Origin: Burkholderiales bacterium
GTDB lineage: Bacteria; Pseudomonadota; Gammaproteobacteria; Burkholderiales; Burkholderiaceae_C
Reading direction: 5' to 3'
Assembly: GCA_026932425.1 (NCBI GenBank)
Contig: JAIXKN010000061.1
Location: forward strand, 1 to 46,425
Length of the DNA: 46,425 nucleotides
The translations under genes were made by a program, and so were the position numbers. Under the pieces are notes generated by a model. That model was given only the letters and a program-made list of their open reading frames with translations. It had not been told where the DNA came from and searched no databases. Each line of letters opens with the position of its first letter. Positions within the stretch are counted from its first letter, which is position 1. Positions 24,338 through 45,575 of this stretch are shown here, piece after piece.

Positions 24338-25780
<1,443 letters not shown>

Positions 25781-25849
25781 TCGATCGTCGGCTGCTCGAT
25801 CGGTCGCGGGTCGCGGACAAGGAACACCCCTGGAGTACGAGGAGAAGGA

Positions 25850-26641
25850 ATGAATCAGGCCAAGACCTCCGGCGAGCCGCTGCTGTCGGTGCGCAAGCTG
25901 CAAGTCGACATCGCCGGCAAGCGCGTGCTGCGTTCGGTGGACTTCGACGTCGATGCCGGCGAGCTCGTCGTGCTGATGGGCGCCAACGGCAGCGGCAAGA
26001 GCACGCTGGCGCTGGCGCTTGCGGGCCACCCGCGCTACGAGGTTTCCGGCACCGCGCACCTGGGTGGGCAGGACCTGCTCGAGCTGCCGGTCGAGGCACG
26101 GGCGCGCGCCGGCCTCTTTCTTTCGTTCCAGGCGCCGCCGGACATCCCGGGCGTCAAGAACAACCTCTTCATCCGCACCGCGCTCAACGCGCAGCGCGCC
26201 TCGCGCGGTGAGCCCGAGATCGACGCCTACGACTTCCTCGGCCAGGCCAAGGCCGGGGCCAAGCGGCTGGGCCTGCCCGACGCGATGCTGGCGCGCCCGG
26301 TGAACGAAGGCTTCTCGGGCGGCGAGCGCAAGCGCAACGAGCTGCTGCAGCTGGCGCTGTTCAAGCCGCGCGTGGCGCTGCTCGACGAGATCGACTCGGG
26401 CCTGGACGTCGACGGCGTGCGCGCGCTGGTCGACCTGATCACCGAGATGCGGGCGCAGGGCACGGCCTTCGTCGTCGTCTCGCACTACCTGCACATGATC
26501 GAGATGCTCGAACCCGACCGCGTGCTGCGGTTGCAGGACGGCTGCATCTCCGAGAGCGGCGACCTCGAACTGGCGCGCAGCATCACCGCGCAGGGCTTCG
26601 CGGCGGCGCCTGCCAGGCAGGCCGCGCCGGTGGGGGCGTGA
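25850..26641 (+). CDS. sufC: Fe-S assembly ATPase SufC
   Basis: The product is 263 residues. It is an ABC ATPase without membrane partner: Walker A GANGSGKST, Q-loop FLSFQAPPDIPGVKN, signature FSGGERKRNELLQ, and Walker B VALLDEIDSGLDVDG. SufC drives structural change of the SufB/SufD scaffold. It starts 69 bases after sufB behind GGAGAAGG. The last ~15 residues are an Ala/Pro-rich extension. Confidence 0.96.
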   Translation: MNQAKTSGEPLLSVRKLQVDIAGKRVLRSVDFDVDAGELVVLMGANGSGKSTLALALAGHPRYEVSGTAHLGGQDLLELPVEARARAGLFLSFQAPPDIPGVKNNLFIRTALNAQRASRGEPEIDAYDFLGQAKAGAKRLGLPDAMLARPVNEGFSGGERKRNELLQLALFKPRVALLDEIDSGLDVDGVRALVDLITEMRAQGTAFVVVSHYLHMIEMLEPDRVLRLQDGCISESGDLELARSITAQGFAAAPARQAAPVGA

Positions 26642-27867
26642 TGGACGCGGCGCGTTCCGAAGCGCTCGCCGCGCGGGCGCAGCTGCTGGAGCAGGGCGGC
26701 TGGCAGTTCCGCCGGCTCGAGGCCTTCCGCTTCGTCGCACCGCCGCCGGCGGAGACCTGGCTGGGTGACGAGACCGTTCTCGACGCGCCGGCCGTACCGA
26801 ACGGCGGCTGGACCTGGGAGCCGTCCGACGCGGCGGCAAAGCCGGACATCCGCTGGCTCGACGCGGCCGACACCAGCCAGCGCAGCGCATTGCTGGAGCG
26901 CCTGCCGCAACCCGGCGAGGATGCCGTTGCGCCCTTCGCGTGGGCGCACCGCGCGCTCTGCAAGGGCGGCCTGCGCATCCGCGTGCCCAAGGCGGCTGAC
27001 CCCGATGCGGCGCCGGTGATGCTGCGGCTGCGACAGTCCTCGAGCGAGGCCGTCGAGGCGCCGCTGCTCGTCGTCGAGCTCGAACCCGGCGCGCACTGCG
27101 TGCTGGTGGAGGAGCATGGACAGGCCGCCGGTGCCGGCCCCGAGGAGGCCGTGCGCAACCTGCAAGTCCACCTCCTGCTGGCTGAGGGCGCGCGGCTGCA
27201 GCACTGGCGTCAGGTGCAGCCGCAAGCCGGTCAACGCGTCGCGCACCACCTCAACGTCCACCTGGACGCGGGCGCGTTCTACGCGCAGGCGATGCTGGCC
27301 ACCGGCAGCACCTACCACCTGCAGCGCGCGCATGTGGTCTTCGAGGGCGAGGGCGCCGAGGCCCGCCTGGGGGGCGTGCTGCTCTCCGACGCGCGCCAGC
27401 TCGATCGCCAGGTGCGCATGATCCACGCCGCGCCGCGCAGCACCAGCACCGCGCGGGCGCTGGCCCTGGCGCGCGGCAAGGCGCTCGTCGCCGCCGACCT
27501 GTACGCGCATGTGCGCCCCGGTGCCGAGGATGCCGACATCCACCAGCACCTGGCCGGGATCCCGACCGCTGGATCGCCGCGCCTGGTGATGCGACCGCAG
27601 CTCGAGATCGAGCACGACGCGGTGCAGGCCGCGCACGGCACGACCTGGGGCCGCCTGCCCGACGAGGCGATCTTCTTCGCGCGCCAGCGCGGGCTGGACG
27701 AGGCCACCGCGCTCTCGCTGATCCTGCACGGCATGGCCGCGGCCGAGGTCGTCCGCGCGTTGGCTGACGAGCGTCTGTGCGAAACGGTGGGCGCGCTGCA
27801 GGCGCTGGACGAGGCGCTGAACCGCTACCTCTCGCCGGCGCAGGCGCAGGAGCGCAGGGATGGGTGA
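26641..27867 (+). CDS. sufD: Fe-S assembly scaffold subunit SufD
   Basis: The product is 408 residues from the ATG at 26641, which shares one base with the sufC stop. A GTG at 26638 is also in frame. The SufBD beta-helix core is seen at LQRAHVVFEGEGAEARLGG, and the C-terminal [20 protein letters not shown] matches SufB/SufD. It pairs with SufB and SufC and is needed for iron entry in known systems. Confidence 0.92.
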   Translation: MDAARSEALAARAQLLEQGGWQFRRLEAFRFVAPPPAETWLGDETVLDAPAVPNGGWTWEPSDAAAKPDIRWLDAADTSQRSALLERLPQPGEDAVAPFAWAHRALCKGGLRIRVPKAADPDAAPVMLRLRQSSSEAVEAPLLVVELEPGAHCVLVEEHGQAAGAGPEEAVRNLQVHLLLAEGARLQHWRQVQPQAGQRVAHHLNVHLDAGAFYAQAMLATGSTYHLQRAHVVFEGEGAEARLGGVLLSDARQLDRQVRMIHAAPRSTSTARALALARGKALVAADLYAHVRPGAEDADIHQHLAGIPTAGSPRLVMRPQLEIEHDAVQAAHGTTWGRLPDEAIFFARQRGLDEATALSLILHGMAAAEVVRALADERLCETVGALQALDEALNRYLSPAQAQERRDG

Positions 27868-29131
27868 CCGGCTGCCCAGCGGCGACGCGATGACGAGCGC
27901 CTTCCCGGTGCTCGCGCAGGAAGTCAACGGCCACGCGCTCGCCTACCTCGACAACGGCGCAACGACGCAGATGCCGGTGCAGGTGATGGATGCGATGCGG
28001 CGCTTCGACACGCACAGTCGCGCCAACATCCACCGCGGGGTGCATACGCTCAGCCAGCGCGCGACCGACGCCTACGAGGCCGCACGCGCACGGCTGCTCG
28101 CCTACGTCGGCGGCAGTGCCGATCACGAACTCGCCTTCACCAGCGGGACGACCGAGAGCCTGAACCTCGTCGCGCAGGGTCTGGCACTGCCGGCGATGCC
28201 TTCGGGCGGAGGCGAAGGGGCGCTGCTGTCGCCCTGGATCCGCGCCGGCGACGAGATCATCACGACCGGGCTCGAGCACCACGCGAACCTCGTCCCCTGG
28301 CAGCTTGCGGCCAGGCGCAGTGGTGCACGGCTGCGCGTGCTCCAGCCCGATGCAGAGGGCAGGATCTCGACGCAGGCGCTGGCCGAACTGCTGTCGCCGC
28401 GCACGCGCGTGTTCGCGATCACGGCCTGCGCCAACGGCAGCGGCGAGCGCCCGCCCTACGAGGAACTGCTGGCGATGGCCAAGCAGGCCGGTGCGCTGAC
28501 CGTGCTCGACGCCGCGCAGGCGGTCGCGCACGAGGTGCCGGTGATCTCGGCGCTGCCTTGCGACTTCATGGCCTTCTCGGGCCACAAGATGTACGGGCCG
28601 ATGGGGATCGGCGCGCTCGTCGGCCGCCGCGAGGCGCTCGAGCGCCTGGCGCCGCTGCGCATGGGCGGCGACATGGTCGAGTGGGTCTCCGAGACCGACG
28701 CCGGCTTCGCCCCGGTCCCGCAGTGTCTGGAGGGCGGCACGCCCAACGTCTGCGGCGCCGTCGGCCTGGCCGCGGCCGCGGACTTCATCGACGGCGTGGG
28801 TCGCGAGGCGATCAGCGCGCACGTCGAGGCGCTGCGCGAGCACGCGGTGGCGGGACTCTCGGCGCTGCCGGGCGTGCGCGTGCTCTCGCCGGAGAACCGT
28901 CGCACCGCGATTGCCTCCTTCATCGCCGAGGACGTGCACCCGCACGACATCGGCACCGTGCTCGACGAGCGCGGCGTGGCCGTGCGAACCGGCTGGCACT
29001 GCGCGCAGCCGCTGCTCGAGCGGCTGTGCCAGTCGCCGACGACGCGGGCCTCCTTTGCCCTCTACAACACGCACGCCGAGGTCGAGCGACTCGTCCAGGG
29101 CGTGGCCGCTGCACTGGACATGCTGCGATGA
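27860..29131 (+). CDS. sufS: Cysteine desulfurase SufS
   Basis: The product is 423 residues. It is a class V aminotransferase-fold desulfurase: YLDNGATTQMP at the start, the PLP lysine K243 in FSGHKMYGPMGIG, and the sulfur-carrying cysteine C381 in RTGWHCAQPLL. It takes sulfur from cysteine and passes it to SufU. The 27860 start overlaps sufD by eight bases; the ATG at 27890 (MTSAFPV) is an equally plausible start. Confidence 0.94.
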   Translation: MGDRLPSGDAMTSAFPVLAQEVNGHALAYLDNGATTQMPVQVMDAMRRFDTHSRANIHRGVHTLSQRATDAYEAARARLLAYVGGSADHELAFTSGTTESLNLVAQGLALPAMPSGGGEGALLSPWIRAGDEIITTGLEHHANLVPWQLAARRSGARLRVLQPDAEGRISTQALAELLSPRTRVFAITACANGSGERPPYEELLAMAKQAGALTVLDAAQAVAHEVPVISALPCDFMAFSGHKMYGPMGIGALVGRREALERLAPLRMGGDMVEWVSETDAGFAPVPQCLEGGTPNVCGAVGLAAAADFIDGVGREAISAHVEALREHAVAGLSALPGVRVLSPENRRTAIASFIAEDVHPHDIGTVLDERGVAVRTGWHCAQPLLERLCQSPTTRASFALYNTHAEVERLVQGVAAALDMLR

Positions 29132-31532: not shown

Positions 31533-32870
31533 TCAGCTCTTGGGGGCGTTGCGCAGATCGCGCACGCGCACCGCCTTGCCCTGCGAGCGCGGGATCGCGC
31601 CGGGCGCCAGCACGTCGACGTGCGCCGAAATGCCGACGATCGCCTTGATGTGGTGCGCCGCGTCGGCGGCCAGCAGCGGGTACTGCTCGGGCGGGATGTC
31701 GGGCAGAGCCTCGATTTCCATCCGCACCGTGTCGAGCGCGCCGTCCTTCATCAGCACGACCTGGTAGTGCGGCGCGATTCCGGGCCGTCCGATGAGGACG
31801 GCCTCGAGCTGGGACGGATAGACGTTGACGCCGCGGACGATCAGCATGTCGTCGTTGCGGCCGGTGACGCGCAGGATGCGCACATGCGTGCGGCCGCAGG
31901 CGCAGATCTCGCGCGTCAGGCGCGTGATGTCGCGCGTGCGGTAGCGGATCATCGGCAGCGCCTGCTTGGTCAGCGTGGTGATCACCAGTTCGCCGGGCTC
32001 GCCATCGGGCAGGCGCTTGCCGGTGTCCGGGTCGATCGTCTCGAAGAGGAAGTGGTCCTCCCAGCCGTGCAGGCCCTGCCCGTGCTCGCATTCGCAGGCC
32101 ACGCCCGGCCCCATGATCTCGGAGAGGCCGTAGATGTCGCGCGCCTTCAGGCCCAGGTGCGCCTCGATCTCCTGGCGCATCGCCTCGCTCCAGGGCTCGG
32201 CGCCGAAGACGCCGACCGCGAGGCCGCATTTGCGCAGGTCGACCCCCTGCTGCTCCGCGACCTCGGCCATCGCCAGCGCGTAAGACGGAGTCGAGCAGAT
32301 CACGCGCGGGCGGAAATCGGAGATCAGCGTGATCTGCCGCTCGGTGCCGCCCCCCGACACCGGCACGACCGTCGCACCGAGCCGCGTGGCGCCGTCATGC
32401 GCGCCCAGGCCGCCGGTGAAGAGACCGTAGCCGTAGGCGTTGTGGACGATGTCGCCCGGGCGTGCCCCGGCCGCGAAGAGCGAGCGCGCGACCAGGTCGG
32501 CCCAGTTCGAGAGGTCCTGCATCGTGTAGCCGACGACCGTCGCCTTGCCGGTCGTGCCCGAGGAGGCGTGGATTCGCGCCAGCTCGGTGCGCGGTCGCGC
32601 GAAGAGGCCGAAGGGGTAGTTGTCACGCAGGTCGGTCTTGACGGTGAAGGGCAGCTTCTGCAGCGCGTCCAGAGAATCGATGTCCTCGGGGCTGGAGAGG
32701 CCGGCTGCCTTGAGCCGCGGCTGGTGCCAGGGGACGTTCTCCCACGCGTTGCGCACGGTCTCGCGCAGGCGCTGCAGCTGCAGTTCCTCGATCTTCTCGC
32801 GCGGCAGGGTCTCCATCTCGGGATGGAGGAATTCGCGCTTCGTCTGCGTGGGGGCGGCGATCTCGGCCAT
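31533..32870 (-). CDS. paaK: Phenylacetate-CoA ligase (PaaK/PadJ-like)
   Basis: The product is 445 residues from the ATG at 32870. Earlier in-frame starts would only add a poorly conserved stretch. Adenylate-forming motifs include HASSGTTGKATVVGY, YGYGLFTGGLGAHDG (the PaaK hallmark), GAEPWSE, YGLSEIMGPGVACEC and MIRYRTRDIT. The C-terminal RSQGKAVRVRD contains the catalytic lysine. It makes phenylacetyl-CoA (or a close aryl-acetyl-CoA) from the acid, CoA and ATP. It lies downstream of padBCD-like genes on the same strand after a 126-base gap, so it probably provides the substrate for the PadBCD enzyme. Confidence 0.93.
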   Translation of the reverse strand: MAEIAAPTQTKREFLHPEMETLPREKIEELQLQRLRETVRNAWENVPWHQPRLKAAGLSSPEDIDSLDALQKLPFTVKTDLRDNYPFGLFARPRTELARIHASSGTTGKATVVGYTMQDLSNWADLVARSLFAAGARPGDIVHNAYGYGLFTGGLGAHDGATRLGATVVPVSGGGTERQITLISDFRPRVICSTPSYALAMAEVAEQQGVDLRKCGLAVGVFGAEPWSEAMRQEIEAHLGLKARDIYGLSEIMGPGVACECEHGQGLHGWEDHFLFETIDPDTGKRLPDGEPGELVITTLTKQALPMIRYRTRDITRLTREICACGRTHVRILRVTGRNDDMLIVRGVNVYPSQLEAVLIGRPGIAPHYQVVLMKDGALDTVRMEIEALPDIPPEQYPLLAADAAHHIKAIVGISAHVDVLAPGAIPRSQGKAVRVRDLRNAPKS

Positions 32871-32904
32871 GACGGGGTCCTCGGTGCTTAAGGCAGGGTA
32901 CGTG

Positions 32905-33000
32905 TTAGGCAGCGTGCATGTCTTTGCTGGATGGCGTCCAGCTCGTGGCAGGCGCGCCCGAAGCGGCGGCTGCACGAACGCGTTGGCCGCGGATGTTCAT
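32905..33000 (-). CDS. Possible 31-residue ORF between padD-like and paaK
   Basis: ATG at 33000 overlaps the stop of the padD-like gene (ATGA), and GGCGGGAG lies just upstream. The product would be 31 residues, starting MNIRGQRVRAAA and ending KDMHAA, with no recognisable domain. Position supports translation but sequence does not, so it may be chance. Confidence 0.25.
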   Translation of the reverse strand: MNIRGQRVRAAAASGAPATSWTPSSKDMHAA

Positions 33001-33839
33001 CTCCCGCCGCGGACCGGAAGATGCGGTAGCGCAAACCCCTGGTTGAATGCGGCCCGGGTGATGAGCATGAACTTGAAGAAGGCCCCGCCCGCGGTGGCGA
33101 GCAGCCCGGTGAGCGCCTGCAGCGGCTGTGCAAGCGAGGCCGGCAACGGGACGAGCCAGACGATCAGCATCAGCGCGAGGGGGACGAGGCTGCCGGCGAC
33201 GTATCCCGGTTTCGTGCGATCGACCGCGCGCAGCGATGCCGGCCGCTTCTGCAGCGAAGCGGCGAGCTTGGCGTACCAGCCGCTGCCCGCGAGGAAGCGC
33301 AACAGCAGCAGCACGCCCAGCGCCAGCCACGCCCAGGTGCTGCCTTGCCCCCACCAGGGGGCGAACAGCCAGTACAGGCCCGCGCCCTCGGCCAGGCCGG
33401 TGGCGAAGATGAGCGGCACGATGCGCGGCTCGCGCCAGGACGGGATGCCCTTGCTCGCCTTCAGGATCCGCGCCTGGCAGTAGAGGAAGGCAGCGGCGAA
33501 GAGCGCGGCCAGCGGCTGCAGCTGCGGCCACAGCAGGCTGGCCGCGCCGCTGATCATCACCAGTGGCGCGACCGCCGCTTCGCGCGACATCCACGAGGTG
33601 TGCGGATGGAAGAAGACGTTGATCGCGCGCAGCGGACGCCCGATCTCGGCCCAGACGCAGAGCAGCCCGATGCCGATCAGCGCCAGCGAAAGCAGCAGGA
33701 GGACGATGCGCAACGTGCCTTCGGCGCCGGCCAGCGTCGAGAAGATCAGCAGGCCGGTGCCTGCACCCCCTCCCATGAAGTTGCCCGCAGCGCGCTCGTC
33801 CCAGTGCAGCTGCTGCCAGGGCTTGGGGCCGTAGCTCAT
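32997..33839 (-). CDS. padD: PadD-like membrane anchor subunit (DmsC/NrfD type)
   Basis: The product is 280 residues with about eight hydrophobic helices. Features include AAGNFMGGGAGTGLLIFST, PLRAINVFFHPHTSWMSREA and LARFLAG-like helices, matching NrfD/DmsC anchors that pass electrons to quinone. The ATG at 33839 overlaps the PadC-like stop (ATGA) and has AGGAGA upstream; a longer start at 33881 would sit inside the PadC-like gene. With the two subunits encoded upstream it gives a three-subunit membrane-bound Mo enzyme like phenylacetyl-CoA:acceptor oxidoreductase. Confidence 0.82.
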   Translation of the reverse strand: MSYGPKPWQQLHWDERAAGNFMGGGAGTGLLIFSTLAGAEGTLRIVLLLLSLALIGIGLLCVWAEIGRPLRAINVFFHPHTSWMSREAAVAPLVMISGAASLLWPQLQPLAALFAAAFLYCQARILKASKGIPSWREPRIVPLIFATGLAEGAGLYWLFAPWWGQGSTWAWLALGVLLLLRFLAGSGWYAKLAASLQKRPASLRAVDRTKPGYVAGSLVPLALMLIVWLVPLPASLAQPLQALTGLLATAGGAFFKFMLITRAAFNQGFALPHLPVRGGR

Positions 33840-34510
33840 CGGCTGTTCTCCTCGTCGTCCTTGCCGTCCTTGGCGTCCCACAGGTAGTAGAAGTTCGGCT
33901 TGGTGCCGAGCTCCTCGTGCATGCGGAAGTGCTTGTTCTCGGCCAGCAGCTGCGAGACGTTGCTGTCCGGGTCCTCGATGTCACCGAAGGCCAGGGCCTG
34001 CGCCAGGCACGAGTTGACGCAGGCCGGCGTGGCCGCCGGGTCGACGCCGGGCGTCAGGCCGTTCTCGAGGCCGTAGTCGATGCGGTCGACGCAGAAGGTG
34101 CACTTGGTCGCGACGCCGATGCGCTCCTCGTCGAAGCGCGCCTGCTCGTGCTCGCTCATCTTGCCGTAGGCGAAGGTGGGCTTCTCGGTCTTGTAGCGCG
34201 CCTGGTAGGGGCAGGCCACCGCGCAGTAGGCGCAGCCGATGCACAGGTCGTAGTCGATCGTGACGATGCCGTCGGGCCGCTTCTTCGTCGCCGTGCTCGG
34301 GCAGACTTCCATGCACGGCGGGTCGTCGCAGTGCTGGCAGCCGGTGGGCACGAAGACGCGCTGCACGTTCGGGAATTCGCCGACCTCCATGTCGAGCACG
34401 CGGCGCCACTGGACGCCCGGCGGCGTGGCGTTGGCGTGCTTGCACGAGGCGGTACAGGTCTGGCAGCCCACGCAACGGCGCAGGTCCGCCACCATCGTCC
34501 AGCGCGTCAT
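33836..34510 (-). CDS. padC: PadC-like iron-sulfur subunit (four [4Fe-4S])
   Basis: The product is 224 residues. Sixteen cysteines fall in four ferredoxin-like groups: C13/16/19/23, C58/61/66/70, C90/93/96/100, and C137/140 with C164/168. This is the DmsB/NrfC-type electron-transfer subunit. It carries electrons from the Mo site to the membrane anchor. Start and stop overlap the neighbours by ATGA, and the C-terminal ~25 residues are acidic and Lys-rich. Confidence 0.88.
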   Translation of the reverse strand: MTRWTMVADLRRCVGCQTCTASCKHANATPPGVQWRRVLDMEVGEFPNVQRVFVPTGCQHCDDPPCMEVCPSTATKKRPDGIVTIDYDLCIGCAYCAVACPYQARYKTEKPTFAYGKMSEHEQARFDEERIGVATKCTFCVDRIDYGLENGLTPGVDPAATPACVNSCLAQALAFGDIEDPDSNVSQLLAENKHFRMHEELGTKPNFYYLWDAKDGKDDEENSR

Positions 34511-37296
34511 GCCGGCACCCTCCGTCGGCCCGCCGGGGCCTTGGTGACTTGCACGCGCACGAGGTCGGCGCCGGAGCCGGTGGCGTCGGTCAGGTCCAGC
34601 GACATCTCGGCCAGGGTGTTGAGGCTCGGCACGCCGAAGTCCTTGGCCAAGGGTGTCGCCCAGTGGTCGAACTGGCCGACCAGCAGCAGCGTGTCGGGCC
34701 GGATGCCCTGGCGCAGCACGACCAGGCCGCGGGTGCTGCGCCGCGGCGTCGCGATGTCGACCCAGTCGCCTTCGTCGACGCCCAGCTTCTCGGCCGCGGC
34801 CGGGTTCATCACGACGCCGTTGTGCCCGGCGACGTTGCCCGCGACCTCGCGGATCATCTGCATCGCGACGTTGCCGCCCCAGGCGTACTGCATGCTGCGC
34901 GCGGTGACGAGCCAGAAGGGATAGTCGGTGGGCTTGCCGCCGGCCTTGCTGACCGCGGCCTCCCACAGGCTCGGGAAGTCCTTCCAGGGCGGCAGCGCCT
35001 GGTACTCCTCGAGCTGCTTGTCCCACCAGTGCATGTCGTTCTCGTGCAGGCGGCGGCCGAGCTCGGCGCCGACGCGCTTGAGCCGCTCCTGGTAGGGCAT
35101 CTCGAAGCGGATGCCCTTCTCGACGACGGTCGGGTAGAGGTACCAGAGGTCGCGCGGGAAGGGCCGGGTCTTGAAGCCGTTCTCCTTCCACCACTCGAGC
35201 CCGAGCACCTCGGCGCCTTCGGTCAGTTCGGCGCTGGCGGCCTTGCAGGCGGCATCCCAAATCTGTTCGCGCGTGTGCGGCACGGTCGGATCCAGCGAGA
35301 AGTCGCCGAACTCACCGTCGAGCTTGACGCCGCAGGTGCCGCGGTTGATCGCCGCGTTGTACTTCTCGAGGAGGCCGCAGCGCTTGGCGAGCTCGGTGCA
35401 GATGTCGCTGAAGTCGCGCGCGTCGCCGCGCGCCTGCACCGCCGGCTGGCGCAGCGCGAAGCCCTCGTGGTCCCAGAACTGCTCCTGGTACTTGGTCGCG
35501 GCCAGGCGCAGCAGCTGCAGACCCTCGAGGTCGGTCGCATCCGGCAGCAGCACGTCGGCGAAGTGGTTGCTTTCGTCGTGCGTGTAGGCGAAGGCGACGA
35601 CGAAGGGGAAGCGCGCGATCTTGTCGGTAACGCCCTTGGTGTCCCAGAACGAGATCGCCGGGTTGGTGCGGTAGACGAACCAGACGTCCGGCGGCTCGAC
35701 CTTGGGCAGACCCTTGGGCGTGTTGTCGAGGAACATCCACGAGAAGTGCGTGGGCCCCAGCGCCTGGGCCCAGGCGTTGTTGCCGGTCAGCGGCACCATC
35801 GTCTTGTAGGCGTTGCGGATGTTCGGCTGCGCCGACCACTTCTCCTTGGACGTCGGGTTGAAGGGGTAGTCCATCAACCCGTCCTCGCCGGCGCGCACGC
35901 TCTCGTGGCGCTCGGCCATCGGGCGCACGAGGCGCACCGTGGTGCCGATCGTGCCGCCGGGCACCTCGAGCGCACCGACGAGGGTCGCCAGCAGCGTGCG
36001 CGCCCAGCAGCACTCGTAGCCGCCCCAGCCGTTGTTGACGGTCTTGCCGAGTGTCACCGCCACCGGGCGGAAGGGCATGGTCTTGCCGTTGATCTCGATC
36101 GTCTGGCCGACGCAGGCGTGGTCCAGGTACTCGTTGGCGATCTGGCGCATGTCCTTGGCCGGCACATCGCAGATGCCCTGCGCCCACTCGGGCGAGTAGG
36201 GCTTCATGTGCGCGACGAGCTTGTCGAAGGCGGTCTCGCCGGTCAGCATGCCGTCGCCCATCACGTCCTGGTCCGGGCCGATCTCGACCGCGTCGACCTC
36301 GACCCTGGCCGACAGCGCCTCGCGGATGCCCGGGGTGTCGTGCGGCACCGCGCGCCGGGTGTTTTCATCCCACACGAGCGGCTTGCGCGTCGCGCGGTCG
36401 CGCAGGTAGTAGCCGTTGGCGCCGATCAGGTAAGGCGAGCTCGTGTGCCGCGCCAGGTGCACGAGGTCGAGCTTCTCGCGCGGCGCCTCGTGCAGCATCA
36501 CGTGGATCAGCGCGTAGAGGAAGGCGGCGTCGGTCTTGGGCCGGATCGGCACCCACTTCGCGGAACACGCCCCGGTGACCGAGAGGTGCGGCTCGACCTG
36601 GACCCGCTTCATGCCGCGGATGCGCGCATCCGAATGACGCCAGATGCCGACGACGCCGCCGGCGGCCTCGATGTTGTTGCCGCAGGAGATGAGGTAGTTG
36701 CAGCTCGGCGTGTCGGGCGCGACGATGAAGGCGCGGTGCCAGAGCTCGCCGTAGAGGTGCTCCGAGTGGTAGCACTTGACGCCCTGGCCCGAACCGAAGC
36801 CCATGTCCACCGGCCCCCAGGCGGCGAGGAAGGCCGGGAAGGTGCCCATGTAGAACTGCGGCGTGCCGCCACCGCCGAAGCTCGCTGCCAGGCGCGGGTA
36901 ACCCGAGGCGTCGGTCAGCCCCTCGGCGCGCAGGCGGTTGAGCCGCTCGGCGATGAGGTCGAAGGCCTCGTCCCAGCTGATCGGCACGAAGCCCGGATCC
37001 TCGTCGCGCCCCTTCTTCGGATTGCTGCGCTTCATCGGCGTCAGGATCCGGTTCGGGTTGTAGGTCTTCTGGATCAGGCCGAAGGCCTTGACACAGACCT
37101 TGCCGCCGCCCGGGTGCACCGCCGCGGCGCAGAAGTTGGGTTCGACCTCGGTCGCGACGCCGTTCTCGACCTTGACGGTCAGCAGATCGGGGCCGGCGAC
37201 GCACTGGTAGCAGTAGGTCGGGACGCGCTTGACGCCTTCCGGGTCGCGCGGACGCACCTCACGGGTGACTCGCCCGAGCGCTTCCGGCGCGTTCAT
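34507..37296 (-). CDS. padB: PadB-like molybdopterin oxidoreductase, catalytic subunit
   Basis: The product is 929 residues from the ATG at 37296, which has GAGGT about 8 bases upstream. It is a DMSO-reductase-family protein: the Fe-S region holds C29, C32, C56 and C68, followed by NPNRILTPMKR, ISWDEAFDLIAERL and the C-terminal VTARSMQYAWGGN and NPAAAEKLGVDEGDWV molybdopterin-dinucleotide segments. The usual C-x2-C-x3-C start lacks its third Cys at the expected place, so cluster ligation may differ. The padBCD order next to paaK fits phenylacetyl-CoA:acceptor oxidoreductase, which oxidises phenylacetyl-CoA to phenylglyoxylate anaerobically. Other aryl substrates or a hydroxylase cannot be excluded. 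No Tat signal is seen, so the active site would face the cytoplasm. Confidence 0.8.
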   Translation of the reverse strand: MNAPEALGRVTREVRPRDPEGVKRVPTYCYQCVAGPDLLTVKVENGVATEVEPNFCAAAVHPGGGKVCVKAFGLIQKTYNPNRILTPMKRSNPKKGRDEDPGFVPISWDEAFDLIAERLNRLRAEGLTDASGYPRLAASFGGGGTPQFYMGTFPAFLAAWGPVDMGFGSGQGVKCYHSEHLYGELWHRAFIVAPDTPSCNYLISCGNNIEAAGGVVGIWRHSDARIRGMKRVQVEPHLSVTGACSAKWVPIRPKTDAAFLYALIHVMLHEAPREKLDLVHLARHTSSPYLIGANGYYLRDRATRKPLVWDENTRRAVPHDTPGIREALSARVEVDAVEIGPDQDVMGDGMLTGETAFDKLVAHMKPYSPEWAQGICDVPAKDMRQIANEYLDHACVGQTIEINGKTMPFRPVAVTLGKTVNNGWGGYECCWARTLLATLVGALEVPGGTIGTTVRLVRPMAERHESVRAGEDGLMDYPFNPTSKEKWSAQPNIRNAYKTMVPLTGNNAWAQALGPTHFSWMFLDNTPKGLPKVEPPDVWFVYRTNPAISFWDTKGVTDKIARFPFVVAFAYTHDESNHFADVLLPDATDLEGLQLLRLAATKYQEQFWDHEGFALRQPAVQARGDARDFSDICTELAKRCGLLEKYNAAINRGTCGVKLDGEFGDFSLDPTVPHTREQIWDAACKAASAELTEGAEVLGLEWWKENGFKTRPFPRDLWYLYPTVVEKGIRFEMPYQERLKRVGAELGRRLHENDMHWWDKQLEEYQALPPWKDFPSLWEAAVSKAGGKPTDYPFWLVTARSMQYAWGGNVAMQMIREVAGNVAGHNGVVMNPAAAEKLGVDEGDWVDIATPRRSTRGLVVLRQGIRPDTLLLVGQFDHWATPLAKDFGVPSLNTLAEMSLDLTDATGSGADLVRVQVTKAPAGRRRVPA

Positions 37297-37592: not shown

Positions 37593-38546
37593 TCAGCCTG
37601 CCAGCGCCGCCTCGTTGGCAGCATGGGGTCCGGCGCCGAACAGGCTGCGCACCTGCTCGCGCAGCCAGCGCTGCGCCGGGTCACCGTCGACGCTCTCGTG
37701 CCAGAGCATCATCACGTCGTAGCCGACGCCGTCGGGCAGTTCCCAGACGCGCAGGTCGTGGCGCTCTGCCTCGGCGCTGGCGAACATCTCGGGAACGATC
37801 GCGAGCATGTCGGTGTCGCGCACGAGTTCGGCCACGGCGCCATAGTGGCGCAGGCGCACGCAACTCGTCGCGCTCAGGTCCAGGCGCTCGAGCACCTGCT
37901 GCACGCTGCCCAACAGGCTCGCGGTGGGCGCCGCCAGCGCCAGCGCCGCGTGCGCGAGCTGGCGCTTCTCCAGCCGCCTGCCCGCAACTGCCGGCAAAGG
38001 TTGCCAGTCGCGTGCGGACAGCGCCACGTAGTGCTCCCGAAAGAGCAGCTCGGCGACCACGCCCTGCTGCTCGGGTACCAGCATGCCGATCGCCAGGTCG
38101 ATCTCGCGCGACTCGAGCGCCGCGCTGACGCGGGCGGCGTCGACCGCCTCGTTGGTGATCCGGCTGGCCGGCGAGAGGCGGCGCATGCGCCGCGCCAGCG
38201 TCGGCAGGAACATCATCTCGCCAAGGTCCGAGAGCGAGAGCCGCCAGTGCACGCTGTCGGTCTGCGGATCGAAGCTCTCGCCGCGGCAGAGCGCCGTCTC
38301 CAGTTCGCGCAGCTGTGTGGCCACCACCGGCGCGATGCGGCGGGCGAGCTGCGTCGGACGCAGGCCGCTGGGCGAGCGCACGAAGAGCGCGTCGCCGAAA
38401 CAGTGCCGCAGCCGCGCCAGCGCGTTGCTCGTCGCCGACTGCGACAGCGCAAGCTGATGGCCGGCCTCGGTCACCGAGCCGGTGCGGTGGATCGCGCACA
38501 GCACGCGCAGCAGGTTGAGGTCGAGCTGGCGGAAGTTCAGTGCCAT
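37593..38546 (-). CDS. LysR family transcriptional regulator
   Basis: The product is 317 residues from the ATG at 38546, where the family start LNFRQLDLNLLRVL follows directly. The DNA-binding helix-turn-helix is AIHRTGSVTEAGHQLALSQS and then ATSNALARLRHCFGD. The C-terminal ~200 residues form the effector-binding domain, with a SLSDLGEMMFLPTLARRMR start typical of the NahR/LinR-like branch. It lies between the padB-like and NfnSL-like genes on the minus strand and may control either. The ligand is probably aromatic by context, which is inference. Confidence 0.9.
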   Translation of the reverse strand: MALNFRQLDLNLLRVLCAIHRTGSVTEAGHQLALSQSATSNALARLRHCFGDALFVRSPSGLRPTQLARRIAPVVATQLRELETALCRGESFDPQTDSVHWRLSLSDLGEMMFLPTLARRMRRLSPASRITNEAVDAARVSAALESREIDLAIGMLVPEQQGVVAELLFREHYVALSARDWQPLPAVAGRRLEKRQLAHAALALAAPTASLLGSVQQVLERLDLSATSCVRLRHYGAVAELVRDTDMLAIVPEMFASAEAERHDLRVWELPDGVGYDVMMLWHESVDGDPAQRWLREQVRSLFGAGPHAANEAALAG

Positions 38547-38563
38547 GGCCACGGTCCACATTC

Positions 38564-41320: not shown

Positions 41321-41338
41321 GAGAGGAGCTTGCAAGCC

Positions 41339-43474
41339 ATGCTGTGCCCGAAATGCCATCGTCCGCTCGCCGACGACAGCGAAGGACCCTACATCTGCTG
41401 CGCCGACGCGCCCAACGAATGGCAATGCCTGGGCTGCGGCAAGGTCAGCGAGGGCTTTGCGCTGCCGTACGGGCGCTGCCCCGATTGCGGCGGCGAGCTG
41501 CAGCTGCGCGACGCGCCGCGCGAGGCGCCGATGGGGGCGGCGCTGCACGCGCTGCGCATGGCCTTCGAGATCGAGCTCGGCGGGCGCGCCTTCTATCAGC
41601 GCGCCGCCGCCGAGACCACCGATCCGGTGCTGCGCCAGCTCTTCGGCCGCTTCGCGGTGATGGAGGGCGAGCACATGGAGACGCTCTCGCGGCGCTACCA
41701 CATCGACACGCCCAACCCGTCACCGGAGTTCCGGCTCGAGGTCGCGGCGCTGTTCGCCGATGTCGCGCACCGGCCCGAAGACCCGGAGAACCTGTTCACG
41801 ATCGCGATCGGGCTCGAAGAGCGCGCTGCGCGCTTCTTCACCGAGCACGCGGAATCGGCGCCCGAAGGCTCGGCCGAGCGCGCGCTCTTCCGTGAACTGG
41901 CGGCCGAAGAGCGCGAGCACGCGCACATGCTGCAGACCGAGCTCGCGCGCTGGCGGCAGGGGCGTGCGGGGCTCTTCGGCGGCGGCGACGAGTCGATCGC
42001 CGCGACCTCGCCCGACGGCTTGATGAATGCCGCGGCCCTGCTGCTGCAAGGCCACGAGGCGGACCGCATCGCACTCGTCTGCGGCGACCAGAAGCTCACC
42101 CGCGGCGAGCTTCGCGACCGGGTCGCGCGTGCCGCGGCGCTGTGGCGCCAGCGCGGCCTGGAACGCGGGCACCGCGTCGCGATCAAGCTCCCCGACGGTC
42201 TGGACTGGGTGGTCGCCTTCCTGGCGACGATCTGGGCCGGCGGCACCGCGGTCGCGGTCAACCCCAAGGTGCCGGCGCCGGAGTGGCAGTACATCCTCGA
42301 GGAGGCGGGCTTCACCGTGATCCTGGCCGAGACTGCCGAGGACACGCCGTCGCCGTGGCGCGAGCGCGTCGTGCTGGTCGACGAGAGCCGCCATCTCGTC
42401 GCGGCGATGGAGCCGATGCCGCCGCGCCTGGTCGATCCGGACACGCCGGCGTTCTGGGTGCACTCCTCGGGCACCTCGGGCAAGCCCAAGGCCGTGGTGC
42501 ACGGCCACCGCTTCGCGCGCATGATCGAGAGCGTCTCGCGCGACCGGCTGGGCATCACCGGCGACGACCGCTTGTTCGCCAGCTCGCGGCTCTTCTTCTC
42601 GTACCCGCAGACCAACAGCCTGTGGGCCGGGCTCAAGCTCGGTGCAACGATCATCCTCGACCCGCGCTGGCCCACGCCCGAAGGCGTGGCCGACATCGTC
42701 CGCGAGACGCGCCCGACCGTGCTCTTCAGCGTGCCCTCGCTCTACCGGCTGCTGCTGGCCGAGGGCCTGGCGCCGGGAATCGCGCAGGCCGGCGTGCGCC
42801 TGTGCGTCTCGGCCGGCGAGGCGCTGCCGCAGAGCCTGCGCGATGCCTGGCGCGAGGCCACGGGCCTCTCGATGTTCGACGGCTACGGCGCATCCGAGAC
42901 GCTGGTGCTGGTGCTGACGGCGCGCGAGGGCGACGACGGCCTGCAGCCTTCGCCCGGCGTCAAGGTGAGCGCGCTCGACCCCGACAGCGCCGCCGACGGC
43001 CGTCCGACGCGGCTGCGCTTCAAGCTCGATTGCCAGGCGCTCGGTTACCTCGACCGCCCGGCCTCGCAGGCCGACAGCTTCCGCGACGGCGCCTTCTGCC
43101 CGGCCGACCTGTTCGTGGCCACCGAGGGCGGCGGCTGGCGCTTCGCCGGGCGCGAGGACACGCTGCTGAAGATCAAGGGCCGCTGGGTCAACCTCAACGA
43201 CCTCGAGGAACGTCTGAGCGCCGGCACGGCCGGCCTCATCGAAGGCGCCGCGGTGCGCATCACCGATGCCGACGGCTTCGACGCGCTGGCCTACTTCTAC
43301 GTCGCGCGCGACGGGCAGGGGGAAGCGGTCGAAAAGGAGCTTGCCACCCGCAGCCAGACCCTGCCGCAGTACCAGCGCCCGCGCTGGCTGCAGCCGGTCG
43401 ACATGATTCCGCGCACCGCGACCGGCAAGCTGTTGCGGCGCAAGCTGGCCGAACTGCTTGGGGAGACGGCGTGA
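41339..43474 (+). CDS. Rubrerythrin-like diiron protein fused to an aryl-acid CoA ligase
   Basis: The product is 711 residues in one uninterrupted frame, starting at ATG 41339 behind GAGAGGAG. Residues 1-52 hold a zinc-ribbon/rubredoxin-like part (C3, C6, C30, C33, C47 and C50, plus C20 and C21). Residues 65-205 are a four-helix ferritin-like domain with a full diiron set: E79, E109-x2-H112, E160, E191-x2-H194. Residues ~228-711 are a benzoate-CoA-ligase-like adenylating domain: HSSGTSGKPKAVVHG (375-389), FSYPQTNSLWAGLKLGATI, YGASE (516-520) and the catalytic lysine in RTATGKLLRRK. A fused pair of this kind is unfamiliar to me. An internal ATG at residue 229 could give a separate ligase. The operon partner just upstream could reduce the diiron domain. 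Confidence 0.85.
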   Translation: MLCPKCHRPLADDSEGPYICCADAPNEWQCLGCGKVSEGFALPYGRCPDCGGELQLRDAPREAPMGAALHALRMAFEIELGGRAFYQRAAAETTDPVLRQLFGRFAVMEGEHMETLSRRYHIDTPNPSPEFRLEVAALFADVAHRPEDPENLFTIAIGLEERAARFFTEHAESAPEGSAERALFRELAAEEREHAHMLQTELARWRQGRAGLFGGGDESIAATSPDGLMNAAALLLQGHEADRIALVCGDQKLTRGELRDRVARAAALWRQRGLERGHRVAIKLPDGLDWVVAFLATIWAGGTAVAVNPKVPAPEWQYILEEAGFTVILAETAEDTPSPWRERVVLVDESRHLVAAMEPMPPRLVDPDTPAFWVHSSGTSGKPKAVVHGHRFARMIESVSRDRLGITGDDRLFASSRLFFSYPQTNSLWAGLKLGATIILDPRWPTPEGVADIVRETRPTVLFSVPSLYRLLLAEGLAPGIAQAGVRLCVSAGEALPQSLRDAWREATGLSMFDGYGASETLVLVLTAREGDDGLQPSPGVKVSALDPDSAADGRPTRLRFKLDCQALGYLDRPASQADSFRDGAFCPADLFVATEGGGWRFAGREDTLLKIKGRWVNLNDLEERLSAGTAGLIEGAAVRITDADGFDALAYFYVARDGQGEAVEKELATRSQTLPQYQRPRWLQPVDMIPRTATGKLLRRKLAELLGETA

Positions 43475-43532: not shown

Positions 43533-44327
43533 ATGAGTCCCGGCCAGCGGCTTTCGACGCAGCGCGAGGGCAGCGCCCTCGTCGTCACGCTCGACCGCCC
43601 GCCGGTCAACGCGGTCGACGACCGGCTGCTGGTCGAGCTCGACGCAGCGATCGACCTCGCCGAGGCCGACGAGGGGGTCTGCCTGCTGCACCTGCGCAGC
43701 GCGAACAAGGTTTTCTGCGCCGGCGCCGACCTGGAGCTGATGCGCTCGTCGATCGCCACGCCCGAGGGCCGCAACCGCATGGTCGCGGTCGTGCTCGAGA
43801 TGCAGCGCGTCTTTGCGCGCCTGGAGAACCTGCCCTGCGTGACGATGGCCGAGATCGGCGGCGCGGCGCTGGGCGGAGGCTTCGAGATGGCGCTGGCCTG
43901 CGACTGGCGCATCGCCGCCGACGAGGCGCGCGTAGGGCTGCCCGAAGCGGGCCTGGGTCTGCTGGCCGCGGCCGGCGGCACGCAGCGCCTGACGAACCTG
44001 GTCGGCGTCGGCGTGGCGCGGCGGCTGATCCTCGGCAGCGAGACGCTGACCGGGCGCGACGCGCTGCAGCTTGGCCTCGTGCAGTGGTCGGTGCCGCGCG
44101 CCGAGCTGCCCGCGGCGGCACGGGCGCTGGCCGAGCGCTGCGCAGCGATCCCGCGCCACACGCTGGCCGAGAGCAAGCGCTGCATCGCGCTGGCGGCCGC
44201 CGCCCGCGGCGACGGCTTCGCTGCCGAGATCGCGGCGACGCGGCGGCTTTACGATCATCCCGAGACGCGGCGCCGCGTGGCGGCCTTTCTCGACAAGAAC
44301 ACAAGCAACCCGAAGGAGAAACCATGA
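43533..44327 (+). CDS. Enoyl-CoA hydratase/isomerase family protein
   Basis: The product is 264 residues from ATG 43533, which has GGGGAG 6 bases upstream. Crotonase features are LDRPPVNAVDDRLL, the oxyanion-hole loop NKVFCAGADLELM, and EIGGAALGGGFEMALACDWRI. The second catalytic position reads LPEAGLGLLAAAGGTQRL with the usual Glu. It would hydrate or isomerise an acyl-CoA in the pathway fed by the ligase. It lies 58 bases after the ligase stop and overlaps the SDR start (ATGA). Confidence 0.88.
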   Translation: MSPGQRLSTQREGSALVVTLDRPPVNAVDDRLLVELDAAIDLAEADEGVCLLHLRSANKVFCAGADLELMRSSIATPEGRNRMVAVVLEMQRVFARLENLPCVTMAEIGGAALGGGFEMALACDWRIAADEARVGLPEAGLGLLAAAGGTQRLTNLVGVGVARRLILGSETLTGRDALQLGLVQWSVPRAELPAAARALAERCAAIPRHTLAESKRCIALAAAARGDGFAAEIAATRRLYDHPETRRRVAAFLDKNTSNPKEKP

Positions 44328-45070
44328 CCTTGAAGAACAAGCTCGCCGTCGTCACCGGTGCCGCATCGGGCATCGGCCGCGCCACGGCCACAGCCCTTGC
44401 CGCCGCCGGCGCGAAGGTGATCGTCGCCGACATCGCCGCCGAGCCGGGCGAGAAGGCCGCTTCCGAGCTGCGCGCCGCGGGCCACCAAGCCGAGTACCTG
44501 GGCGTGGACATGACGTCCAATGATTCGATCAACGCCTTCGCCGAGGCGCTGAAGGCCAGGCACGGCAACGCCGACATCCTCGTCAACGCCGCCGGCTGGG
44601 GCCGCACCGCACCCTTCTGGGAGGGCACGCCCGACTTCTGGGACAAGGTCATCGCGCTGAACTTCGTGGGGCCGATGACGCTCGCCAAGGCGCTGCTTCC
44701 GGCGATGATCGAGCGCAAAGCGGGCAAGATCATCAACGTCTCGAGCGACGCCGGCCGCGTCGGCAGCCTCGGCGAGACCGTGTACTCGGGGGCCAAGGGC
44801 GGGCTGATCGCCTTCACCAAGGCGCTGGCGCGCGAGGTCGCGCGCTACGGGATCAACGTCAACTGCGTCTGCCCGGGGCCCACCGACACGCCGCTGATGG
44901 CGGCCGTACCCGACAAGGTCAAGGACGCGCTGACCAAGGCGATCCCGATGCGACGCCTGGGACAGCCGCAGGAGGTCGCCGACGCGATCGTCTTCTTCAG
45001 CGGACCCGGTTCGGACTTCATCACCGGCCAGGTGCTGAGCGTCAGCGGCGGGCTGACGATGGTCGGCTGA
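44324..45070 (+). CDS. SDR, 2-hydroxycyclohexanecarboxyl-CoA dehydrogenase (BadH)-like
   Basis: The product is 248 residues. SDR motifs are TGAASGIG, NAAGWG, the catalytic Ser in NVSSDAGRVG, and VYSGAKGGLIAF for Tyr and Lys. The C-terminal stretch NCVCPGPTDTPLMAAVPDK and then SDFITGQVLSVSGGLTM closely resembles BadH of the alicyclic branch of anaerobic benzoate degradation, as recalled without alignment. BadH oxidises 2-hydroxycyclohexanecarboxyl-CoA. Its place with an aryl-CoA-ligase and two hydratases supports a CoA-thioester ring pathway, but the substrate could be different. Confidence 0.82.
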   Translation: MTLKNKLAVVTGAASGIGRATATALAAAGAKVIVADIAAEPGEKAASELRAAGHQAEYLGVDMTSNDSINAFAEALKARHGNADILVNAAGWGRTAPFWEGTPDFWDKVIALNFVGPMTLAKALLPAMIERKAGKIINVSSDAGRVGSLGETVYSGAKGGLIAFTKALAREVARYGINVNCVCPGPTDTPLMAAVPDKVKDALTKAIPMRRLGQPQEVADAIVFFSGPGSDFITGQVLSVSGGLTMVG

Positions 45071-45077
45071 GGCGGCG

Positions 45078-45575
45078 ATGAGCTACTCGCTGCCCGAATT
45101 CCTCGCGCACGCGATTGCGCTCGAGCGCGAGGCTGCCGAGCGCTACCTCGAGCTTGCGGACATGATGGAGTCCTACCGCAACGACGAGGTCTCGCAGCTC
45201 TTCCGCGACATGGTGCGCTACTCGAACATGCACCACGACTCGATCGTCGAGCGCGCCAAGGGCATCGCGCTGCCCGCGCTGCGCAGCTGGCAGTACCGCT
45301 GGCGCCAGCCGCCCGAGGTCGGCGGCGAGGAGGCCTTCGATCCGGGCCTCAACGCCTACGACGCGCTGCGCTACGCGCGCGAGAACGAAATCCGTGCGCG
45401 CGACTACTACGTGCAGGCGGGCAAGGAGTCGAGCGACGCCGAGGTCCAGCGCCTGGCCGCCGAGTTTGCCGCCGAGGAAGCCGAGCATGTCCAGGCGCTG
45501 GAGGAGTGGCTCGCGCGCACGCCGCGCCCCTCGGCGACCTGGGAACACGACCCCGACCGCAGCGGCGCGGCCTGA
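45078..45575 (+). CDS. Ferritin-like protein with incomplete diiron motif
   Basis: The product is 165 residues and predicted four-helix. [17 protein letters not shown] (helix 1), [14 protein letters not shown] (helix 2), [17 protein letters not shown] (helix 3) and [14 protein letters not shown] (helix 4) follow the ferritin-like order. Helix 4 has a proper E-x2-H, and helices 1 and 3 have Glu. Helix 2 has a His but Asn or Ser where the Glu of E-x2-H is expected. Metal binding may thus be altered. It lies seven bases after the SDR and is the second ferritin-like protein in the operon, after the rubrerythrin-ligase fusion. Confidence 0.8.

Follow-up and report, generated by a model that had tools for sequence, protein, structure and literature searches.

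The window, that is the whole stretch of 46,425 nucleotides that was analysed, contains a gene in which a rubrerythrin-like segment is joined to an aryl-CoA ligase (Table 1). The open frame runs from 41330 to 43474 on the forward strand, and the ATG at 41339, which has the ribosome-binding-like stretch GAGAGGAG immediately 5' of it, gives a protein of 711 residues. The G+C content at the three codon positions is 73, 51 and 93 %, and the surrounding genes are alike. Pfam, run on the 714-residue reading of the frame, finds two domains in that one protein: a rubrerythrin domain (PF02915) with 39.8 bits against a cut-off of 22.8, and an AMP-binding domain (PF00501) with 196.5 bits against 29.9. 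This confirms the preliminary description, made from the DNA letters, of a zinc-ribbon-like segment, a diiron domain and a ligase in a single frame. A stop between residues 205 and 229 had been named there as a finding that would speak against the fusion, and the frame has none. PF02915 also matches all 66 relatives that were scanned (E<=1). In the structure model the helices of the diiron domain lie at residues 66-92, 96-120, 149-173 and 179-206; the prediction for the full-length protein has a pTM of 0.64. The linker, measured from W205 to N230, is 18 to 37 residues long across 38 fusions.

Table 1. Features of the fusion gene and of its surroundings in the window
Feature	Coordinates	Strand	Remarks
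Rubrerythrin / aryl-CoA ligase fusion	41339..43474	+	711 aa plus stop
Residues 1-60, rubredoxin/zinc-ribbon-like segment	41339..41518	+	
Residues 66-206, four-helix ferritin-like diiron domain	41534..41956	+	E79, E109/H112, E160, E191/H194
Residues 207-229, variable linker	41957..42025	+	
Residues 230-711, ANL-type aryl-CoA ligase	42026..43471	+	HSSGTSGKPK loop, TGK lysine motif
Flavin/Fe-S reductase, 784 aa	38966..41320	+	ends 18 bases 5' of the fusion ATG
Enoyl-CoA hydratase ECH1	43533..44327	+	
SDR dehydrogenase	44324..45070	+	closest model BadH, 278 bits (cut-off 431)
Second ferritin-like protein, 2OH3/COG1633-like	45078..45575	+	PF02915 37.1 bits
Enoyl-CoA hydratase ECH2, family PRK08258	45641..46423	+	runs past the window end
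LysR-type regulator	37593..38561	-	divergent neighbour
PaaK-like (phenylacetate-CoA-ligase-like), DmsC-like membrane, Fe-S and molybdopterin oxidoreductase genes	31533-37296	-	
sufB-sufC-sufD-sufS in a row	24338-29131		ordinary Fe-S assembly cluster, ~10 kb off the fusion operon

The cluster on the reverse strand at 31533-37296 is, judging by the gene order, probably a phenylacetyl-CoA oxidoreductase (pad) cluster. Hydroxybenzoyl-CoA reductase genes were found upstream in 17 of the 27 fusion loci with enough sequence; subunits A and B score above their curated cut-offs in one locus (L033), and the assignments elsewhere are by similarity to those subunits. A reductase of the 38966 type lies directly upstream of the fusion in 20 of 33 testable loci, or 21 when L054 is counted, where the reductase alignment overlaps the start of the fusion. 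Downstream, ECH1 follows in 20 of 33 testable loci, the SDR gene in 20 of 31, ECH2 in 13 of 25 and the ferritin-like gene in 8 of 25. Beyond this set of downstream genes L048 has an acyl-CoA-dehydrogenase-like gene, of which L033 carries a relative. At the level of genomes, 11 of the 19 that carry the fusion gave a reductase match (in G262 the gene is cut by a contig end). Seven others gave none at E<=1e-150, and the match in G077 is confined to the second half. The recurrence of the same neighbours therefore stands in part: the reductase is often adjacent, but not as a rule, and a dedicated partner reductase everywhere was rejected on the same counts. None of the partner genes tested is adjacent to the fusion copies L070, L099 and L117. 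The window genome has a second fusion copy (L028, G000:C85:54236-56350), which is 64 % identical to the first, has no reductase beside it and is close to the gene of a sigma-54 regulator that resembles MobR (465 bits against a cut-off of 999). As for the second ferritin-like protein downstream, the gene that had been noticed is real, but its helix B reads YSNMHH and by eye is without the usual metal-binding Glu.

The metal sites of the N-terminal part are conserved. Across 81 sequences (38 fusions, 20 stand-alone and 23 reductase-fused proteins), eight cysteines, E77, E79, Y86, E109, H112, E160, E190, E191 and H194 are invariant. The invariance of C47 and of E109-H112 in this set is partly by construction, because the search patterns of the scan contained them; the fusions recovered by profile search are free of this bias. 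In 22 further sequences (16 fusions and six unfused) the six diiron ligands and C30, C33, C47 and C50 are kept wherever they are covered, the fragment L036 not reaching E79. The ligands E79, E109/H112, E160 and E191/H194 had thus been read correctly, and their loss, which would have weakened the case for the fusion, was seen in none of the fusions examined. Not all eight cysteines are essential. Two fusions (L033 and L034) and one reductase fusion (L043) lack C3, C6, C20 and C21 or have only some of them, and L133 has Gly in place of C21, while C30, C33, C47 and C50 are present in all sequences that cover them. From the alignments, the constant Cys4 site is the second one, C30/C33/C47/C50. The earlier assignment of a cysteine-rich zinc ribbon holds for the cysteines, but the segment may resemble rubredoxin more than a plain zinc ribbon: at E<=1, RUBY_RBDX has a match in 53 of the 66 members, the best at 2.8e-4, with zinc-ribbon models matching about equally, and the window protein itself scores 11.0 bits, under the cut-off of 26.5. 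The segment lies N-terminal of the diiron domain, not C-terminal as the classical rubredoxin domain does. Position 163, three residues after E160, is Ala in 81 of 81 sequences and in the 22 further ones. In classical rubrerythrins the equivalent position, if the register of this comparison is right, holds an extra Glu for peroxide, and its replacement by Ala may lower the specificity for peroxide. In comparisons with four relatives, dN/dS ranges over 0.14-0.28 in the diiron domain and over 0.13-0.30 in the ligase, which indicates that purifying selection is acting on both. Together with the kept ligands, these values rule out a degenerate passenger domain.

The ligase domain has the HSSGTSGKPK and TGK motifs, and its PF00501 score places it among the ANL enzymes, in which the TGK lysine is the catalytic Lys. 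The fold and motifs are those of the benzoate-CoA ligase family, at about 30 % identity to the BadA structures 4RLF and 4EAT. However, the domain scores under the curated cut-offs of the benzoate-CoA ligase model TIGR02262 (254.3 bits, cut-off 375) and of HbdA NF053567 (299 bits, cut-off 1000). We know of no member of the benzoate-CoA ligase family that carries a diiron domain. The hydroxybenzoyl-CoA reductase neighbours suggest that the substrate may be a hydroxybenzoate.

The origin of the N-terminal part can be traced to PRK12775 (NF009413), an NCBIfam protein of 1006 positions that consists of a flavin/Fe-S reductase plus a rubrerythrin. Residues 5-215 of the fusion (714-residue reading) match positions 798-1005 of PRK12775 with 289.7 bits, and the upstream gene matches positions 3-761 with 1359.1 bits, in agreement with its earlier reading as a flavin/Fe-S reductase. 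The cut-off for the whole protein, 1895 bits, is not reached by the two separate genes of the window. PRK12775 has the two parts in one chain; in the window they are encoded separately, and a CoA ligase is attached to the rubrerythrin part. A search of the named genome collection returned 213 relatives, of which the best 80 were kept, so that less similar fusions may have been missed. The script sorted these 80 into 37 rubrerythrin-ligase fusions, 23 reductase-rubrerythrin fusions and 20 stand-alone rubrerythrins; the expectation that homologues with both domains would recur is thereby borne out. The 37 fusions come from Rubrivivax, Ramlibacter, Ideonella, Piscinibacter, Rhodoferax and their kin, two of them being Ramlibacter isolates, R. 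monticola KACC 19175 (L117) and R. lithotrophicus RBP-1 (L074), and because so many loci from many assemblies carry it, the fusion is not an artefact or a chimera. The 23 reductase fusions are from Anaeromyxobacter and other Myxococcota, Telmatospirillum and Thiocystis. The reductase is present in 19 of the 20 stand-alone loci and pyruvate:ferredoxin oxidoreductase in 10; L121, the one locus sorted as stand-alone that lacks the reductase, is in fact a fusion truncated where its contig ends (in G001). In L084 the unfused reductase and rubrerythrin genes lie between those for 4-hydroxybenzoyl-CoA reductase and indolepyruvate:ferredoxin oxidoreductase. The reductase/rubrerythrin pair is therefore a module that is often found with ferredoxin-linked enzymes.

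The history of the fusion was followed in a ligase tree of 63 rows, made by a quick method and rooted on three ordinary ligases. In this tree all 52 fusions, among them some near-copies from two collections, form one group with five ligases that have no diiron domain (SH-aLRT 92). One of the five (L035) is nested in a group of seven rows with support of 100, and the other four (L039, L045, L140 and L141) cluster together on long branches with support of 91. On this tree a single lineage attached the second half of the reductase-rubrerythrin module to the ligase, and the diiron domain was then lost twice; the loss in L035 is firm, and the second is only likely because the long branches were flagged by the program as uncertain. 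In L140 (G202) the ligase is preceded by a short MPCPPCHPP that resembles the start of the fusion and is possibly a remnant of the lost ribbon. The diiron domain is dispensable in at least one lineage of these ligases, since it was lost there while the genomes keep benzoyl-CoA reductase. Three more ligases without the domain (L142, L143 and L144) branch outside the group and are unfused kin. The rubrerythrin tree asks for two changes to account for the fusions, with the stand-alone protein of Ramlibacter monticola (L093) standing among them at support 89. Alignment A5 had 66 rows including the window protein, 15 of the 80 loci being excluded; L121, sorted by the script as a rubrerythrin (RBR), was not counted among the unfused proteins, either in the rubrerythrin tree or in the comparison of fusion-specific residues given below. 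Two sequences with distant labels, L060 (Anaerolineales) and L116 (Chitinophaga), group closely with Burkholderiales-type sequences and are perhaps from misbinned contigs.

The occurrence of the fusion is associated with that of class I benzoyl-CoA reductase. Among the matches listed, it is present in at least seven of the 37 genomes of the genus and in at least 14 of 399 sampled genomes of the family; the family count includes G001, where the fusion spans a contig break, and G160, both checked separately. In G021 the fusion is cut at a contig end. The benzoyl-CoA reductase subunit BcrB is above its cut-off in 21 of 399 family genomes, a sample drawn identically and with genome handles that agree wherever they can be compared. 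Class I benzoyl-CoA reductase occurs in 12 of the 14 fusion genomes and in 9 of the 385 others (family sample, matches listed), which upholds the anaerobic setting proposed for the fusion; the Fisher p of 9e-16 counts related genomes as independent. A renewed search of the fusion genomes G386 and G160 for benzoyl-CoA reductase gave a match under the cut-off in the one and none in the other. In a selection of 24 genomes, of which 18 carry the fusion and six the unfused ligase, BcrB is above the cut-off in 23 and BoxB in 22. BoxB is present in 17 of the 18 fusion genomes tested, which thus have the genes to live under both oxic and anoxic conditions; G087 has no BoxB match, and TIGR03225 has none at E<=0.001 in the window genome (84 % complete), the fusion included. 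Among the matches listed from thin samples of the class (340) and the order (300) at E<=1e-40, no further rubrerythrin-ligase fusion was seen, and apart from the window genome the diiron domain occurs there only in a reductase fusion (G570) and in a 219-residue frame (G878). A plasmid-borne origin was rejected, as none of 559 matching plasmid records covers 80 % of the query, and the diiron domain has no match in PHROG.

Four residues of the diiron domain distinguish the fusions from their relatives. R83, Q87, G110 and E114 are all present in 38 of 38 fusions and occur together in none of 42 unfused relatives; they are also found in 16 of 16 further fusions, although the ligase tree shows seven of these to be nearly identical to members of the first set, and in none of six further unfused proteins. 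The cut fusion L121 has the four residues and the unfused L093 does not. They are the sole positions that are invariant in the fusions, below 60 % in the stand-alone proteins and not invariant in the reductase-fused ones. In the reverse comparison, two positions that vary in the fusions are invariant in the stand-alone proteins and 18 in the reductase-fused group. From helix geometry, the quartet would sit on the flank or outer side of helices A and B. Its invariance is partly shared ancestry, because the fusions have one origin. In the ligase domain, residue 618 (43190-43192) is Asn in 42 of 43 fusions and Asp in five of five ligases that have lost their former diiron domain.

Several known proteins bear on the function. 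In reverse rubrerythrins, such as revRbr1/2, the Cys4 segment is N-terminal. The fusion is like them in having a Cys4 segment before a four-helix diiron domain with the full ligand set; it differs in being fused to a ligase and, in most members, in an extra N-terminal CxxC...CC. The COG1633 proteins 2OH3 and 2FZF are the best matches of the diiron domain by both sequence and fold, among the matches listed, and stand alone, whereas the domain here is fused. There are no canonical rubrerythrins among the 50 matches listed per fold search, which is uninformative by itself.

We propose that the fusion protein has two functions in the anaerobic degradation of (hydroxy)benzoate, being a ligase with a tethered O2/H2O2 reductase that guards the oxygen-sensitive aryl-CoA reductases, a proposal that we place slightly on the probable side. 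The C-terminal domain would convert an aromatic acid, ATP and CoA to the aryl-CoA, and the N-terminal domain would act as a reverse-rubrerythrin-like reductase of O2 or H2O2. Electrons would come from NAD(P)H or ferredoxin, through the neighbouring reductase or another donor, and reach the diiron site by way of the Cys4 centre; there, O2 or peroxide would be reduced to water. Because of the tether, the scavenger would stand next to, and in constant proportion to, the enzymes that provide the oxygen-labile reductases of 4-hydroxybenzoyl-CoA and benzoyl-CoA with their aryl-CoA. Of the readings, a protective role appears to fit best, since the diiron part corresponds to the C-terminus of PRK12775 and reverse rubrerythrins reduce O2 and H2O2; those of Clostridioides difficile are NADH-linked O2 and H2O2 reductases according to PMC7482061. 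Benzoyl-CoA reductase is termed the sole oxygen-sensitive enzyme of its pathway in PMC5658619. Counting against protection are that the reductase is not universal, that ligases of the clade have lost the diiron domain in genomes with benzoyl-CoA reductase, that some fusion copies have no tested partner gene next to them, that two fusion genomes have no benzoyl-CoA reductase over the cut-off, and A163.

The two domains might instead be joined for co-expression only, a stop codon having been lost between adjacent genes of an operon so that each domain works separately and the link has no special role. The order reductase, rubrerythrin and next gene is common, and the variable linkers and the loss of the domain from some ligases of the clade are what this would lead one to expect. 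We nevertheless think it unlikely, given that the fusion persists over many genera with both domains constrained, that fusion-specific residues are conserved, and that isolated copies (e.g. L070, L099 and L117) persist. Alternatively, the Cys4/diiron domain might sense O2 or the redox state and switch the fused ligase, so that this enzyme would activate aromatic acids only under conditions in which the anaerobic reductases work. An invariant quartet on helices A and B is what a domain with a specific docking partner would be expected to show. The change from N618 to Asp after loss of the domain points the same way, and the co-occurrence of BoxB means that there is a choice of pathway. Such a switch is quite unlikely, however: the four residues could also belong to a dimer interface or reflect common descent within a clade that arose once, the linker varies in length, and no precedent was found in the titles and abstract openings of the open-access literature searched. 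That rubrerythrin docking through the R83/Q87/G110/E114 face sets the activity of the ligase, and hence the choice between anaerobic and aerobic routes, is likewise a doubtful proposition.

The preliminary description had also raised the possibility of a new diiron catalyst, in which the domain would hydroxylate, epoxidise or otherwise oxidise the aryl-CoA made by the adjoining domain, with the 38966 protein as its reductase in the manner of BoxB/BoxA. BoxB is a diiron enzyme that acts on an aryl-CoA thioester, and in BoxB/BoxA a diiron protein and a flavin/Fe-S reductase are arranged around the aryl-CoA much like the fusion and the 38966 gene. A reductase upstream in 20 of the 33 testable loci and a ligand set that, without the peroxide-type Glu, resembles that of bacterioferritin would suit such a role. 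BoxB, however, is a separate protein encoded elsewhere in the fusion genomes, the same ligands are found in the 23 reductase fusions that have no ligase, and the genetic context, with 4-hydroxybenzoyl-CoA and benzoyl-CoA reductases, is anaerobic. Catalysis on the thioester is disfavoured as the least likely of the readings, and is in our view very improbable, because the domain exists without a ligase and nearly all of the genomes already have BoxB.

How facultative bacteria keep oxygen-labile aromatic-ring reductases running as O2 fluctuates is an open question, to which a scavenging or sensing domain within the pathway's entry enzyme would offer a concrete and testable answer. The reductase-rubrerythrin module has here been dismantled and reused, and the family models used in this work divide the resulting architecture among unrelated names. 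No description of a rubrerythrin-ligase fusion was found in the titles and abstract openings covered by searches of the open-access literature. A different use of the module is seen in L040, L041, L043 and L044, where pyruvate:ferredoxin oxidoreductase follows the rubrerythrin, which is accompanied by the reductase in those loci whose contig extends far enough. L040 also encodes a dihydroorotate-dehydrogenase-like protein and a small ferredoxin-like protein, and in loci of this type the rubrerythrin/reductase and the oxidoreductase possibly form an NADPH-to-ferredoxin module.
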